Positions 19,014 through 24,676 of a DNA stretch of 64,000 nucleotides are shown piece after piece. The stretch is from the NCBI GenBank assembly GCA_016869975.1, contig VGCZ01000004.1, forward strand, positions 1 through 64,000. The letters run 5' to 3'. The DNA comes from Alphaproteobacteria bacterium (GTDB lineage Bacteria; Pseudomonadota; Alphaproteobacteria; Reyranellales; Reyranellaceae). A program made the translations under genes and the position numbers. The notes beneath the pieces were generated by a model. It worked only from the letters and a program-made list of their open reading frames with translations, searched no databases and had not been told where the DNA came from. How positions within the stretch are numbered: position 1 is the first letter of the stretch; the number at the start of each line of letters is the position of its first letter.

Positions 19014-19958
19014 ATGAGCGACCAAAACACACCCCTCCCGCCTCTTTCACCCCGCCACGAGCGCTTCGTCCTGGAGTACCTCCGCGACGGCAACGCCACC
19101 CAGGCCTATATCCGCGCCGGATACTCCCGACGCGGCGCCCAGCCCAGCGCGTCGCGGTTGCTGCGCCAACCGCATATCGAAGCCGCCATCGCCGCCGGCC
19201 AGCAACGCATCGCCGCCGCGCTGGAGATCTCCGTCGAGCGCCTCGGGCGCGAATACGCCAGGATCGCCTTCGCCAATATCGACGACTTCGTGCGCGTCGA
19301 GGCCGATGGCCGCCTGCGCGTCGATCTGGACAAAGCCAGCCAGGCGCAGCGCGCCGGCATCGTCGAACTGAAGATCGCCAACCATAGCAAACCAGAGCAA
19401 ACCGTGACCCTGAAGCTGGGCAAGCTGAAGGCGCTGGAGATGCTGACGCACCGCGTCGGGCTGTTCGCCCGGAAACCCGAGCCGGTGCCGACGGCGCGGG
19501 ACGACGACACCTACAAGGAGGCCTTCGAGAAGATGGAGGAGGACTGGGAGGACACGATACAGCTGCTGGGCGAGACGGCGGCGGAACTCGACAAGACGCG
19601 GGCGGCGCTGGCGGCGGCCGAGGCCAGGCTCGCGGCCGCCGTCCCGGTCACGCCGCCCGGTCGACCCCAAGCTCATGCCGAGGCGGCCGCCGCGCCGCCT
19701 CCTCGGGGCGAGGGCGAGATCGCGGGCGAATGCCCCGCCACCGCGCCCGAGGAGCCGCCGCCGATCATGCTCAAGGGCATGGGGCCGCCCTATCCGCCGA
19801 AGCAGGTGTCGCAGCCACCGTCGCAGTCGCCACCGCAGCCGGAGCCGCTGGTCGCCGGCGCCGGAAATGGGCGGATCTTCTGGAACACCGAGCGCAAGCC
19901 GCCGCCAGGCCCCACCTGGCACGACATCATCCGTAACTCCAAGTTCCCGGGATGGTGA
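19014..19958 (+). CDS. Orphan phage terminase small subunit-like protein
   Basis: 314 aa. Residues about 10-150 match the Terminase_2 small-subunit pattern: HERFVLEYLRDGNATQAYIR, a helix-turn-helix type DNA-binding start, then AGYSRRGAQPSASRLL and EYARIAFANIDDFVRV. Residues about 160-205 are coiled-coil-like and Ala/Glu-rich. Residues 205-290 are a low-complexity Pro-rich tail, and the last 25 end in PTWHDIIRNSKFPGW. Phage small subunits recognise packaging sites and are usually 150-200 aa without such a tail. No large terminase, portal, capsid or integrase gene is beside it, so it may be a phage remnant or a domesticated DNA-binding protein. Base composition is like its neighbours. Confidence 0.75.
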   Translation: MSDQNTPLPPLSPRHERFVLEYLRDGNATQAYIRAGYSRRGAQPSASRLLRQPHIEAAIAAGQQRIAAALEISVERLGREYARIAFANIDDFVRVEADGRLRVDLDKASQAQRAGIVELKIANHSKPEQTVTLKLGKLKALEMLTHRVGLFARKPEPVPTARDDDTYKEAFEKMEEDWEDTIQLLGETAAELDKTRAALAAAEARLAAAVPVTPPGRPQAHAEAAAAPPPRGEGEIAGECPATAPEEPPPIMLKGMGPPYPPKQVSQPPSQSPPQPEPLVAGAGNGRIFWNTERKPPPGPTWHDIIRNSKFPGW

Positions 19959-20088: not shown

Positions 20089-21780
20089 ATGAGCGTGGCG
20101 ACGGACGGCACCAAGGGCGCCAACACCATCACCGGGCGCAGCGCCTTCCTGGCGCTGCTCAAGGACGAGGGCGTGACGACCCTGTTCGGCAATCCCGGCA
20201 CCACCGAGCTGCCGATCATGCACGCACTTAGCGAGCATCCCGATCTCGGCTACGTGCTGGGCCTGCAGGAGGCGATCGTCATCGCCATGGCCGACGGTTT
20301 CACCCGCGCCTCGGGCAGGCTGACCTCGTGCAATGTCCATGTCGCGCCCGGCCTGGGCAACGCCATCGGCGCGATCTACACGGCGATGATGTCGGGCACG
20401 CCGATGATCGTCACCGCCGGCCAGCAGGAGCAGGGTCACGGCCTGACCGAGCCGCTGCTCTACGCGCCGCTGGTGCCGATCGCGACGCCGGTCGTGAAAT
20501 GGGCCACCGAGGTGACGCGCATCGAGGATCTGCCGCGCATCATGCGCCGCGCCGCCAAGATCGCCACCACGGCGCCGACCGGTCCGGTGTTCATCTCGCT
20601 GCCCGGCGACATCCTCAACGACGAAGCGCCGCTCGATCTCGGCGAGTCGACGCGCGTCGACACCGCCGTGCGTCCCTCGGACACGGCGCTCGAGGCCTTC
20701 GCACGCCGGCTGCTGGCGGCCAAGTCGCCGGTGATCGTCGCCGGCACCGAGATCGTCACCTCGGACGCGCTGGCCGAGGCGGCGCGCTTCGCCGAGCTGC
20801 TGGGCGCGCCGGTGTGGCAGCAGACGGTCAATACCGGTGCCCATTTCCTCTCCGAGCATCCCTGCTTCATGGGCTCGCTCAACCGCAACCAGCGCGCGGT
20901 GCGCGATATCCTGGCGCCACACGACCTGCTGCTCTGTCTCGGCGCCGACGTGCTGCAGATGTCGGTCTACAGCGAGATCGAGCCGCTGCCGGTCGACACG
21001 CGCGTGCTGCAGATCGGCCTGCGCGACTGGGAGATGGGCAAGAACTTCCCGGCCGAGATCGCCCTGCGCGCCGACGTCAAGGAGACGCTCAAGGCGCTGA
21101 TCCCGGTGCTTGAGCGGCTGGGCGGCGCGACGCTCGCCTCGAAGGCGCGCACCTCGATCGCCGGCCTGTCGGCCAAGAACTGGAGCGCCAAGCGCGAGGC
21201 CAAGCGCCAGCAGACGGCGTTGCGCGCCGAGGCCAGCCCGATGCATCCGGAATGGGTGATGATGCGGCTGTCGGAGCGGCTGCCGGCGGACGCGATCGTC
21301 GTCGACGAGGGCCTGACCAGCGCCAACAGCCTGGTGAGCTACTGGCCGTTCCGCGACCGCTACTCGTATTTCGGCAATGTCAGCGGCGGCATCGGCTGGG
21401 GCATCGCTGCGGCGGTCGGCGTGCAGCTGGCGCAACCCAAGCGGCGCGTGGTCGCGGTGATCGGTGACGGCAGCTCGATGTACAGCATCCAGGCGATCTG
21501 GAGCGCGGCGCACTACAAGCTGCCGGTGACCTTCCTGATCGCCAACAACGGCGGCTACCAGATCCTCAAGGACCGGCTGAAGCTGTTCCACGGCAACGAC
21601 AAGCCGATCGGCATGGATTTCCGCGACCCGCCGATCGACTTCTCCGGCCTCGCGCGTTCCTTCGGCCTCACCGCCCGCCGCGCCACCACGGCGCTGGAAT
21701 TCGACGCCGCGCTCGACGCGGCGATGGCCAAGACCGATGGCCCCACCTTGATCGAAGCGATGGTCGGCAAGGCAACCTGA
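20089..21780 (+). CDS. Thiamine pyrophosphate-dependent decarboxylase (benzoylformate decarboxylase-like)
   Basis: 563 aa with the three-domain layout of the acetolactate synthase/benzoylformate decarboxylase family. The N-terminal pyrimidine domain holds FGNPGTTELPIMHAL and GLQEAIVIAMADGF (the Glu that activates ThDP). The C-terminal TPP motif is GDGSSMYSIQAIWSAAHYKL with the paired IANNGGYQ Mg site. FGNPGTTELP is characteristic of benzoylformate decarboxylase rather than acetolactate synthase. It probably decarboxylates a 2-oxo acid. AAAAGGAGTG gives a strong ribosome-binding site. The 130 nt upstream contain nothing I recognise. Confidence 0.85.
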   Translation: MSVATDGTKGANTITGRSAFLALLKDEGVTTLFGNPGTTELPIMHALSEHPDLGYVLGLQEAIVIAMADGFTRASGRLTSCNVHVAPGLGNAIGAIYTAMMSGTPMIVTAGQQEQGHGLTEPLLYAPLVPIATPVVKWATEVTRIEDLPRIMRRAAKIATTAPTGPVFISLPGDILNDEAPLDLGESTRVDTAVRPSDTALEAFARRLLAAKSPVIVAGTEIVTSDALAEAARFAELLGAPVWQQTVNTGAHFLSEHPCFMGSLNRNQRAVRDILAPHDLLLCLGADVLQMSVYSEIEPLPVDTRVLQIGLRDWEMGKNFPAEIALRADVKETLKALIPVLERLGGATLASKARTSIAGLSAKNWSAKREAKRQQTALRAEASPMHPEWVMMRLSERLPADAIVVDEGLTSANSLVSYWPFRDRYSYFGNVSGGIGWGIAAAVGVQLAQPKRRVVAVIGDGSSMYSIQAIWSAAHYKLPVTFLIANNGGYQILKDRLKLFHGNDKPIGMDFRDPPIDFSGLARSFGLTARRATTALEFDAALDAAMAKTDGPTLIEAMVGKAT

Positions 21781-21813: not shown

Positions 21814-21840
21814 CTGTCATCCCGAGCGCAGCGAGGGATC
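21814..21840. repeat. Family A repeat, single arm
   Basis: CTGTCATCCCGAGCGCAGCG followed by AGGGATC. Only the left arm is present and the right arm is missing, so no long hairpin can form. It lies 110 nt upstream of the haem peroxidase gene. Confidence 0.8.
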
Positions 21841-21950: not shown

Positions 21951-23510
21951 ATGCTGGAGAACGTACCAAGCTGGCTGTTGCGGCTGGCGCTCTGGGTTGT
22001 GAGCAAATCCGAATGGCTGAGCGACAAGCTCAACCGCTTCGCGATCAACAGCGCGGTCGAGGTCTGCCGCACGCGTCCGCATCCCTGGAGCACGGCGCAC
22101 GACTACGTATCGTGGACATCGCTCACCGACATGCGCTGGAGCGCGCGCCATCTGCCGGCCGTTCGTCTCGACGGGCTGCCGGCGCCCGAGACACTGCGGG
22201 AAATGTTCCGGGCACCCGGCACCGGGCAGCGCCCGTGCGAAAAATCGACCTGCCTGTTTCCCGCCTTCGCGCAGTACCTGACCGACGGCTTCATTCGGAC
22301 CCGCTCGCAACAGGAAGGCGAACCCGACGACGTCCGGCGTCAGAACACCTCGAACCACCAGATCGATCTGTGCCCGCTCTACGGCCGGACACCGGCGCAG
22401 ACCGCGATTCTGCGGCTGCGCGACGACACCGCGGGTCGGCGCGGTCGGCTCAAATCGCAAATCCTCCACGGCGAGGAGTACGCGCCGTTCCTGCTGGAGA
22501 ACGACGCCGTCAAGGCGGAGTTCGCCGGGCTGGATGCGCCGCTCGGCCTGTCGAAGGTCCAGGATCCAGCTCAACGGGCGGTGATCTTCGCCTTCGGCGG
22601 CGATCGGGCGAACGCCACGGCGCAGGTGGCGATGCTCAATACGCTGTTCCTGCGCGAGCACAACCGCGTCGCCGGCGAGATCGAGCGCCTCAACCCCGCA
22701 TGGGACGACGACCATGTCTTCGAGGTCGCCCGCAACATCGTGATCGTCCTGTTCATCAAGATCGTGGTCGAGGAGTACATCAACCACATCGCGCCGCTGC
22801 CGGTTCGCCTGCGCGCCGACCCGAGAGTGGCCTGGACCGCGGACTGGAACCGGCCCAACTGGATCACGACCGAGTTCAGCCTGCTGTACCGGTGGCACTC
22901 GCTCATTCCCGACACCATCGTCTGGAAGGACAAGAGCTATCCCGTCGGCGCGACGCCGCTGAACAATCGCCCGTTGCTTGAGGCCGGCCTGACGCGCGCC
23001 TTCATCGACATGAGCACCCAACGCGCTACGCGTCTGGGCGCCTTCAACACCGCCGCCGCGTTGGTCGACCTCGAGATCCTCGCCATCCGCCAGGGGCGCG
23101 CCTGCGATGTCGCGCCTTTCTGGAGGTACTGCGAATACGTCGGCTTGCCCGTGCCGCGCTCCTTCGAGGACATCACCAAGGATGCCGGCGTCGTCGCGTT
23201 CCTGAGGCAAGCGTATGGCGATGTCTCAAAAGTCGATTTCTACGTCGGCCTGTTCGCCCAGGAGACGGTGAAGAACTCGCCGCTGCCGCCCCTGACCCTG
23301 CGCATGGTCGCGGTCGACGCATTCTCCCAGGCGCTGACCAATCCGCTGTTGTCGGAACACGTCTTCAAGGAGGAGACGTTCACGCCGTTCGGCTGGACGA
23401 CCATCAGCCAGACATCGACGTTGCGCGACGTCGTCGCCCGCAACAGCGCGACGCCGCTCGGCGACGCGCGCATATCGATGACGCGCGCCGGCTGGAAGCA
23501 CGCCTGGTAG
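21951..23510 (+). CDS. Cyclooxygenase-like haem peroxidase with altered distal residue
   Basis: 519 aa of the animal haem peroxidase superfamily, with block-by-block similarity to prostaglandin H synthase. The N-terminal 45 residues are amphipathic like the membrane-binding helices. STAHDYVSW matches NSAHDYISW. FAQYLTDGF matches FAQHFTHQF: Gln108 is kept, but the distal-His position is Asp112. FLREHNRVAGEIERLNPAW and EYINHIA match the core helices. LLYRWHSLIPDT carries the equivalents of the catalytic Tyr385 (Tyr313) and proximal His388 (His316). DAFSQALTNPLLS has Ser459 at the aspirin-site serine. No signal peptide or EGF domain is present. I infer a fatty-acid oxygenase with weak or absent peroxidase half-reaction. 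It is monocistronic, with a purine-rich GGCGGGGGAAATC before the ATG. Confidence 0.82.
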   Translation: MLENVPSWLLRLALWVVSKSEWLSDKLNRFAINSAVEVCRTRPHPWSTAHDYVSWTSLTDMRWSARHLPAVRLDGLPAPETLREMFRAPGTGQRPCEKSTCLFPAFAQYLTDGFIRTRSQQEGEPDDVRRQNTSNHQIDLCPLYGRTPAQTAILRLRDDTAGRRGRLKSQILHGEEYAPFLLENDAVKAEFAGLDAPLGLSKVQDPAQRAVIFAFGGDRANATAQVAMLNTLFLREHNRVAGEIERLNPAWDDDHVFEVARNIVIVLFIKIVVEEYINHIAPLPVRLRADPRVAWTADWNRPNWITTEFSLLYRWHSLIPDTIVWKDKSYPVGATPLNNRPLLEAGLTRAFIDMSTQRATRLGAFNTAAALVDLEILAIRQGRACDVAPFWRYCEYVGLPVPRSFEDITKDAGVVAFLRQAYGDVSKVDFYVGLFAQETVKNSPLPPLTLRMVAVDAFSQALTNPLLSEHVFKEETFTPFGWTTISQTSTLRDVVARNSATPLGDARISMTRAGWKHAW

Positions 23511-23611: not shown

Positions 23612-24676
23612 TCACCCCCCCAGCAACGCCGGCGCGGCCTTGACCTCCTGGCGTTCGACCTTCTTGACGATCTCGGTCAGCTTGACGTGCGCCGGTGCCT
23701 TCACCCCGATGTAGGCGCCGCGCTCGGCGATGTAGCCGTTCATGAACTCGATCTCGGTGCGGCGGCCCTTGCGGATGTCCTGGGCCATAGAGGGGCGCTG
23801 GATGTCGGCGCGCGGGTTGGGGTTGGTGTTCGAGCCGGGGCGCAGGATGGCCTCGATCTCGTCGAGCGCCGCCTTGTCGTTCTCCGAGGCGCGCGCCAGG
23901 GTCTCGGGCTCCATCTTGCCGATCTTCTCGATGTGGTAGCCCAGCGCCTGACCGATGCGCACCGCCTCGCCGCCGAGCTGGATCGAGAAACGGCGGATGG
24001 TGTCGTTGCGGTCGCAGTCCGAGCCCGTGAGACCCGTGGCGGCCGAGACGCCGTTCTTCATGCCGTTCTGGCACAGCTTGGACCAGCGCTCGCCCCAGAG
24101 GTTCGTGGTCGTCTTGGCGCTGTCGATCATGCCGACCATCTCGCGCAGCTCCTCGACGCGCTTGGTGATGCGGCCATGGACTTCGCCGACACGGAAGACG
24201 GTGTGCTTGTCGCCGCCTTTGGCGACGGTGCGGCGGATGGTGGCCGGCTCGTACATGTCGACGGAGATCAGCGAGGCGACCATGCCCACGGTCTTGCCCC
24301 AGCCGACGACTCCGGCGATGCGCTCCTCGTTGAGGCAGTTCTGCAGCGAGACGACGAAGCCGTCGGGCGACAGATACTGCCGGATCATCGCCGTCGCCCA
24401 TTCGGTGTCGTAGGACTTCACGGCGACGAAGGCGATGTCGATCGGCTTCTGGCGGCTGAGATCCTGCAGCTCGGTGAGGTGCATGGTCTTGGCCTTGGTG
24501 ACGGTGAACTTCTCCTCCGGCGTCACGCCATCGAGCAGCAGGCCGCGCGTGCGGATGGCCTCGATGTTCTCCGGCCACATGTCGATCAGGGTCACGTCGT
24601 GGCCGTTCTGCGCCAGATAGCCGCCGACATAGCCACCCAGCGCGCCGACGCCAACCACCGCGATCCGCTTGCCCAT
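23612..24676 (-). CDS. 2-dehydropantoate 2-reductase (ApbA/PanE) family protein
   Basis: 354 aa NADPH-dependent ketoacid reductase family. The N-terminal Rossmann motif is VVGVGALGGYVGGYLAQNGH (residues 7-26, GxGxxG), AVKSYDTEWA is the usual domain hinge strand, and LWGERWSKLCQNGMKN carries the conserved Lys and Asn of PanE-like proteins. It is longer than biosynthetic PanE (about 300 aa), with a C-terminal RADIQRPSMAQDIRKGRRTE segment that matches the PSMxQDxxxGRxTE signature. It may act in catabolism rather than pantothenate synthesis. GGGAGGACATC precedes the ATG at 24676. Confidence 0.85.
   Translation of the reverse strand: MGKRIAVVGVGALGGYVGGYLAQNGHDVTLIDMWPENIEAIRTRGLLLDGVTPEEKFTVTKAKTMHLTELQDLSRQKPIDIAFVAVKSYDTEWATAMIRQYLSPDGFVVSLQNCLNEERIAGVVGWGKTVGMVASLISVDMYEPATIRRTVAKGGDKHTVFRVGEVHGRITKRVEELREMVGMIDSAKTTTNLWGERWSKLCQNGMKNGVSAATGLTGSDCDRNDTIRRFSIQLGGEAVRIGQALGYHIEKIGKMEPETLARASENDKAALDEIEAILRPGSNTNPNPRADIQRPSMAQDIRKGRRTEIEFMNGYIAERGAYIGVKAPAHVKLTEIVKKVERQEVKAAPALLGG

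Follow-up and report, generated by a model that had tools for sequence, protein, structure and literature searches.

In the linoleate 10S-dioxygenase (10S-DOX) of Nostoc punctiforme (B2J5P4), the sequence F143-T-D-S-F occupies the place at which cyclooxygenase (COX) carries F205-T-H-Q-F, and two further motifs, Y305-I and DAFxQA, have been described for the enzyme (PMC13049297). As described there after Brash 2014, it converts oleate and linoleate to 10S-hydroperoxides and acts together with a catalase-related lyase; it has also been used for making reference 10S-hydroperoxyoctadecadienoic acid (10S-HPODE; PMC9579011). Here we describe a gene of this type in a 64,000-nt stretch of DNA (hereafter the window; contig VGCZ01000004.1, assembly GCA_016869975.1) from an alphaproteobacterium of the Reyranellaceae. 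The gene very probably encodes an orphan alphaproteobacterial haem dioxygenase of the 10S-DOX type, which would form fatty-acid hydroperoxides by way of a radical on Tyr313. To judge from the aligned relatives, its Asp in place of the distal His is a hallmark of a small bacterial family of fatty-acid oxygenases that has in part been characterised before; the Nostoc enzyme, characterised earlier, has it too, and the residue itself is hence not new. What is new, as far as our searches reach, is the spread of the family, its two kinds of partner, a possible Asp-Arg couple and the existence of phage copies.

The window protein matched the An_peroxidase family PF03098 (E = 1.6e-44; 152.8 bits against a curated cut-off of 25) and is the sole PF03098 protein found in its own 4.84 Mb genome; a search of NCBIfam found no model for it. 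Its best solved relatives were COX-1 and COX-2 (phmmer, E = 3e-47, residues 14-501), with 29.6% identity across 459 aligned columns, and identity to its full-length relatives was 30-56%. An AlphaFold2 model built from 11 window and locus sequences reached a predicted local distance difference test score (pLDDT) of 66.5 and a predicted template modelling score (pTM) of 0.74, so the fold is usable and side-chain geometry is not claimed (an earlier model from 5 sequences, with a pLDDT of 49.7, was left unused). The top Foldseek matches were all COX-1 or COX-2 (TM about 0.7), and VIA-align Z scores were about 27-28.6 for COX, 24-25 for DUOX and 20-22.6 for peroxidases and alpha-dioxygenases, which bears out the COX likeness that the original prediction had read from sequence blocks. 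Residue 1 of the model aligned with COX residue 88; part of the membrane-binding-domain helices is therefore present and the epidermal growth factor (EGF) domain is absent, as predicted, while the accompanying claim that there is no signal peptide was assessed by visual inspection alone.

Residue equivalences were taken from a MAFFT alignment of the window protein with COX-1 and 19 bacterial relatives, in which the columns of Gln108, Asp112, Tyr276, Tyr313, Trp315 and His316 all lie inside well-anchored blocks (Table 1). The catalytic Tyr313, the proximal His316 and Gln108 fall, as proposed at the outset, in the columns of Tyr385, His388 and Gln203, and the equivalents of Tyr348, Trp387 (Trp315) and Tyr504 (Tyr431) are also present; missing, besides the EGF domain, are the distal His207, Ser530 and Arg120. 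The aspirin-site serine had been assigned to Ser459, an assignment that fails in both the phmmer and the MAFFT alignments, where Ala457 falls on Ser530 and Ser459 on Lys532. Structural comparison puts an alanine of Nostoc 10S-DOX, Ala487, at the same Ser530 position (PMC13049297). Two features had been overlooked, namely the loss of Arg120, whose column is occupied by Ala35, and the presence of Arg219 at the Val291 column; Arg66, considered as an equivalent of Arg120, was ruled out, as it aligns with Arg150. The window protein carries the residues that mark the 10S-DOX type: the distal Asp in a T-D-S/G context (L110-T-D-G-F), the catalytic and central Tyr, the proximal His, and the Ala at Ser530 within a D-A-F-x-Q motif (DAFSQA).

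That a COX-related fatty-acid oxygenase would carry Asp112 in place of the distal His is upheld by the sequence alignment, in which Asp112, and no His, occupies the distal position; the model is not good enough in this region to test it structurally. This Asp was invariant in a 17-row family alignment, in three further members (L033-L035) and in the phage copies described below (T-D-G/S), and a His occurred at its column only in the distant outgroup L016. Since the Asp is found in all 18 other full-length bacterial relatives that were aligned and in the phage relatives, Asp112 is no oddity of the window protein, and it marks the family rather than a single mutation. Gln108, Tyr276, Tyr313, Trp315, His316 and Ala457 were likewise invariant across the bacterial relatives aligned.

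We propose that haem b would be held by His316 and oxidised by a hydroperoxide, either a trace lipid peroxide or the enzyme's own product, with Asp112, probably together with Arg219, taking over the acid-base work of COX His207. The ferryl haem would turn Tyr313 into a radical able to abstract a hydrogen from an allylic or bis-allylic position of an unsaturated fatty acid, probably one of C18; O2 would then add, and the fatty-acid hydroperoxide would leave intact because the peroxidase half-reaction is expected to be weak. In the relatives the hydroperoxide is probably handed to a catalase-related protein or a cytochrome P450; for the window enzyme such a partner would be absent or unlinked. 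Dioxygenases (DOXs) carry a conserved Arg at the COX Val291 position, which is the column of Arg219 (PMC13049297). In B-class DyP peroxidases, deprotonation of the peroxide falls to a distal Asp, and an Arg maintains the cavity and may help O-O heterolysis (PMC6153280). Because Asp with Arg forms compound I in B-class DyP, such a pair is chemically workable, and by this analogy Asp112 and Arg219 plausibly form an activating couple that replaces the distal His, which offers a testable idea for enzyme activation without that residue. The need for an external activator, which had been put forward in the original prediction, is unsupported: Nostoc 10S-DOX makes 10S-hydroperoxides with the same Asp, so that a distal Asp is compatible with an active oxygenase, and the distal H203Q exchange in fungal 8R-DOX merely reduced catalysis (PMC13049297). 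The alternative offered in that prediction, a different peroxide chemistry, may apply in the form of the Asp-Arg couple.

PF03098 carries a peroxidase name, and the protein might instead be a haem peroxidase or catalase-like detoxifier that reduces lipid hydroperoxides, with no oxygenase activity. Arg219 would suit this role, its position being that of the distal Arg of mammalian peroxidases, and the relatives L033 and L034 each have a downstream gene with a KatG-looking start (judged by eye). However, the distal His common to peroxidases of the superfamily is missing in every family member, the oxygenase-site Tyr313 and Trp315 are invariant, and peroxidases match the fold less well than COX does; the retained equivalent of Tyr385 and the better COX match speak against clustering with peroxidases that lack this Tyr, and we regard a detoxifier as improbable. 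Less probable still is a true prostaglandin-forming cyclooxygenase that has lost its peroxidase half and would bis-oxygenate arachidonate to prostaglandin G2 (PGG2): the equivalents of Tyr385, Tyr348, Trp387, Gln203 and His388 are retained, but Ser530 (Ala457), Gly526 (Val453), Arg120 and Tyr355 are missing, the terminal motif matches 10S-DOX, and arachidonate would not be expected in the source bacterium.

Many relatives of this 10S-DOX-type dioxygenase are accompanied by a second haem protein. In a Caulobacteraceae metagenome-assembled genome (MAG; L002:1649-4315) and in Methylorubrum rhodesianum (L003:8915-11560), a single open reading frame encodes both the dioxygenase and a catalase-related domain, and these in-frame fusions are likely to be natural two-step oxylipin enzymes. 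An adjacent catalase-related gene was found in L004, L012 and L020 (Paracoccus yeei), L014 (Methylobacterium currus), and L015 and L019 (Ruegeria), and in L026 (7690-12201) the two genes lie about 1.9 kb apart with a RoxA-like cytochrome c gene between them, a trio that possibly forms a lipid-oxidation cluster. On rhizobial plasmids a P450 gene stands directly upstream of the dioxygenase (L009:5637-6914, L010:5646-6926 and L011:5604-6860, from Rhizobium gallicum, Sinorhizobium medicae and R. etli, respectively; the L011 P450 was weakly matched by Pfam), which recalls the fungal fusions of DOX with P450 (DOX-CYP). The family is tied in this way to two second-step haem proteins, echoing the association of COX with thromboxane and prostacyclin synthases. 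In the stretches read, no second haem protein was found at the window copy or at L001, L013, L018, L027 and L035; a catalase-related lyase partner, which describes the two-gene 10S-DOX pathway and not the enzyme family, is frequent among relatives, not universal.

Several points weigh against placing the window protein with 10S-DOX. Leu110 replaces the Phe of COX and 10S-DOX, and Ala281 the Thr310 of 10S-DOX, and the oxygenation position may therefore differ from that of 10S-DOX; the Nostoc enzyme was compared through published motifs only. Arg219, otherwise conserved, is replaced by Asn in Ruegeria and by His in L035, which weakens the proposed Asp-Arg couple. Confidence in the model is moderate, with pLDDT <50 at residues 297-317. 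Finally, a catalase-related homologue was not found in the protein's own genome by a query that detected one in all four control records, and the P450s of this genome resemble the rhizobial partner at only about 26%; the window enzyme thus either is an orphan or has a partner of another kind.

Beyond the window gene, the 76 genomes searched within the order gave no full-length homologue and two weak partial matches; two other homologues were found in 385 genomes of the class and three others in 398 genomes of the phylum. The dioxygenase gene was also found on plasmids, which together with its rare and patchy occurrence suggests horizontal transfer. We give very little credence to the idea that the gene, presumably acquired horizontally, is decaying or non-functional, which would fit its isolation in the order and the absence of the usual partner gene, because the open reading frame (ORF) is intact, every active-site column is retained, and orphan copies occur elsewhere too, at the five loci named above. 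In the tree, the 10S-DOX-type protein of the window groups with L001, L026, L033 and L034 (support 98/94); when COX-1 and a distant peroxidase were included as outgroups, long branches were drawn together and the root was not firm. With these members, the range of this COX relative reaches beyond cyanobacteria to Alphaproteobacteria, among them rhizobia, Methylobacteriaceae and Paracoccus, and to a planctomycete MAG.

Dioxygenase copies were also found in phages: scanning IMG/VR with the family profile yielded eight uncultivated viral contigs, and a scan with one phage copy added a ninth (L036-L043, L047-L055). These copies are 82-99% identical to one another, and the full-length ones (559-562 aa; e.g., L041:4977-6665 and L043:4968-6647) are 37-38% identical to the window protein. 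They retain Gln108, Asp112, Arg219, Tyr276, Tyr313, Trp315, His316 and Ala457, and their pairwise dN/dS of 0.10-0.16 (NG86) points to purifying selection. Both contigs that were checked are phage, one (G1207) having terminase phrog_15 (E = 2e-200) together with genes for portal, head protease and major head protein, the other (G1208) having unrelated terminase (phrog_38), portal (phrog_145) and head-protein (phrog_212) genes; the dioxygenase occurs in at least two phage types that are unrelated to each other. The phage clade has a support of 100/100, with L027 as the nearest bacterial row (94/96). Upstream of the dioxygenase, L040-L043 encode a coiled-coil-like protein whose C-terminal part contains a single hydrophobic segment; in L040 and L041 its gene overlaps the dioxygenase in a TAATG stop-start. 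Downstream lies an endolysin gene (phrog_10051) in L043, and in L042 an ORF that, by eye, looks alike occupies the corresponding position. Neither 50,697 isolate phages nor PHROGs yielded a homologue, a literature search found nothing on phage-borne cyclooxygenase-like enzymes or oxylipins, and the named significant matches in the BFVD structure library were giant-virus proteins (haem peroxidase, alpha-dioxygenase). The role of these copies might, as a guess, be an oxidation of lipids linked to lysis; if a role were shown, they would represent a new type of cargo enzyme in phages. More speculative, and in our view rather unlikely as a whole, is a scheme in which Asp112 and Arg219 would make compound I in DyP style to start the tyrosyl radical within a COX fold, and phages would have captured this enzyme, in some cases beside lysis genes, possibly oxidising host membrane lipids.

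Table 1. Positions in the window of the dioxygenase gene, its key codons and its flanking genes.
Feature	Position	Strand	Basis
COX-like / 10S-DOX-type haem fatty-acid dioxygenase coding sequence (predicted), 519 aa	21951..23510	+	intact ATG ORF, PF03098, full-length relatives
Gln108 = COX-1 Gln203	22272..22274	+	alignment; invariant in family alignment
Asp112, at distal-His (His207) position	22284..22286	+	alignment; invariant in bacterial and phage relatives
Arg219, at COX-1 Val291 (DOX-type distal Arg)	22605..22607	+	alignment
Tyr276 = Tyr348	22776..22778	+	alignment
Tyr313, catalytic Tyr = Tyr385	22887..22889	+	alignment
His316, proximal haem ligand = His388	22896..22898	+	alignment
Ala457, at Ser530 (aspirin) position, within D-A-F-x-Q motif of 10S-DOX	23319..23321	+	alignments, published motif
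Thiamine-diphosphate (TPP) enzyme, upstream neighbour, no known link to oxygenase	20089..21780	+	
Ketopantoate-reductase-like protein (ApbA), downstream neighbour, no known link	23612..24577	-	

Other genes around the window oxygenase encode TauD, phosphoenolpyruvate (PEP) mutase, a GMC oxidoreductase and acyl-CoA dehydrogenases, and no sigma-70-like promoter was found ahead of the oxygenase gene. A 23-bp element, CATCCCGAGCGCAGCGAGGGATC, is present in 11 copies in the window (<=3 mismatches; 0 expected), several of them as inverted pairs, and one copy (21818-21840) falls in the gap that separates the TPP-enzyme gene from the dioxygenase. The window also encodes, at 19014-19958, a stand-alone terminase-small-subunit-like protein (PF03592), a family with 9 matches in the genome.

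Compared with known systems, the window protein shares with Nostoc 10S-DOX a COX-like fold without EGF domain, the Asp of T-D-S/G-F, the equivalents of Tyr385, Tyr348 and His388, the Ala at Ser530 and the DAFxQA motif, and differs from it in having Leu110 for Phe143, Ala281 for Thr310 and Val453 for Ile483, and in its gene having no adjoining catalase-related lyase gene, none being detected in the genome. With COX-1 and COX-2 it has in common the fold, the catalytic Tyr, the proximal His, Tyr348, Trp387 and Gln203, and its N-terminal helices align with the COX membrane-binding helices; unlike them, it has Asp for His207, Arg for Val291 and Ala for Ser530, and lacks Arg120 and the EGF domain. 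Plant alpha-dioxygenases belong to the same superfamily and would share fatty-acid oxygenation with it, but are less similar in sequence and fold (Z about 20.9, vs up to 28.6 for COX), and the likeness of its putative distal Asp-Arg couple to that of DyP peroxidases is one of analogy only, the fold and superfamily being unrelated. The fungal DOX-CYP fusions (8R-, 9- and 10R-DOX) resemble the bacterial family in their Arg at COX Val291, in the association with a hydroperoxide-using haem protein and, as predicted from sequence, in C18-acid haem dioxygenase chemistry; however, the fungal enzymes retain the distal His and come as fusions with their P450, whereas in the bacterial family Asp takes its place and the partner is a catalase-related protein or a P450 encoded separately.
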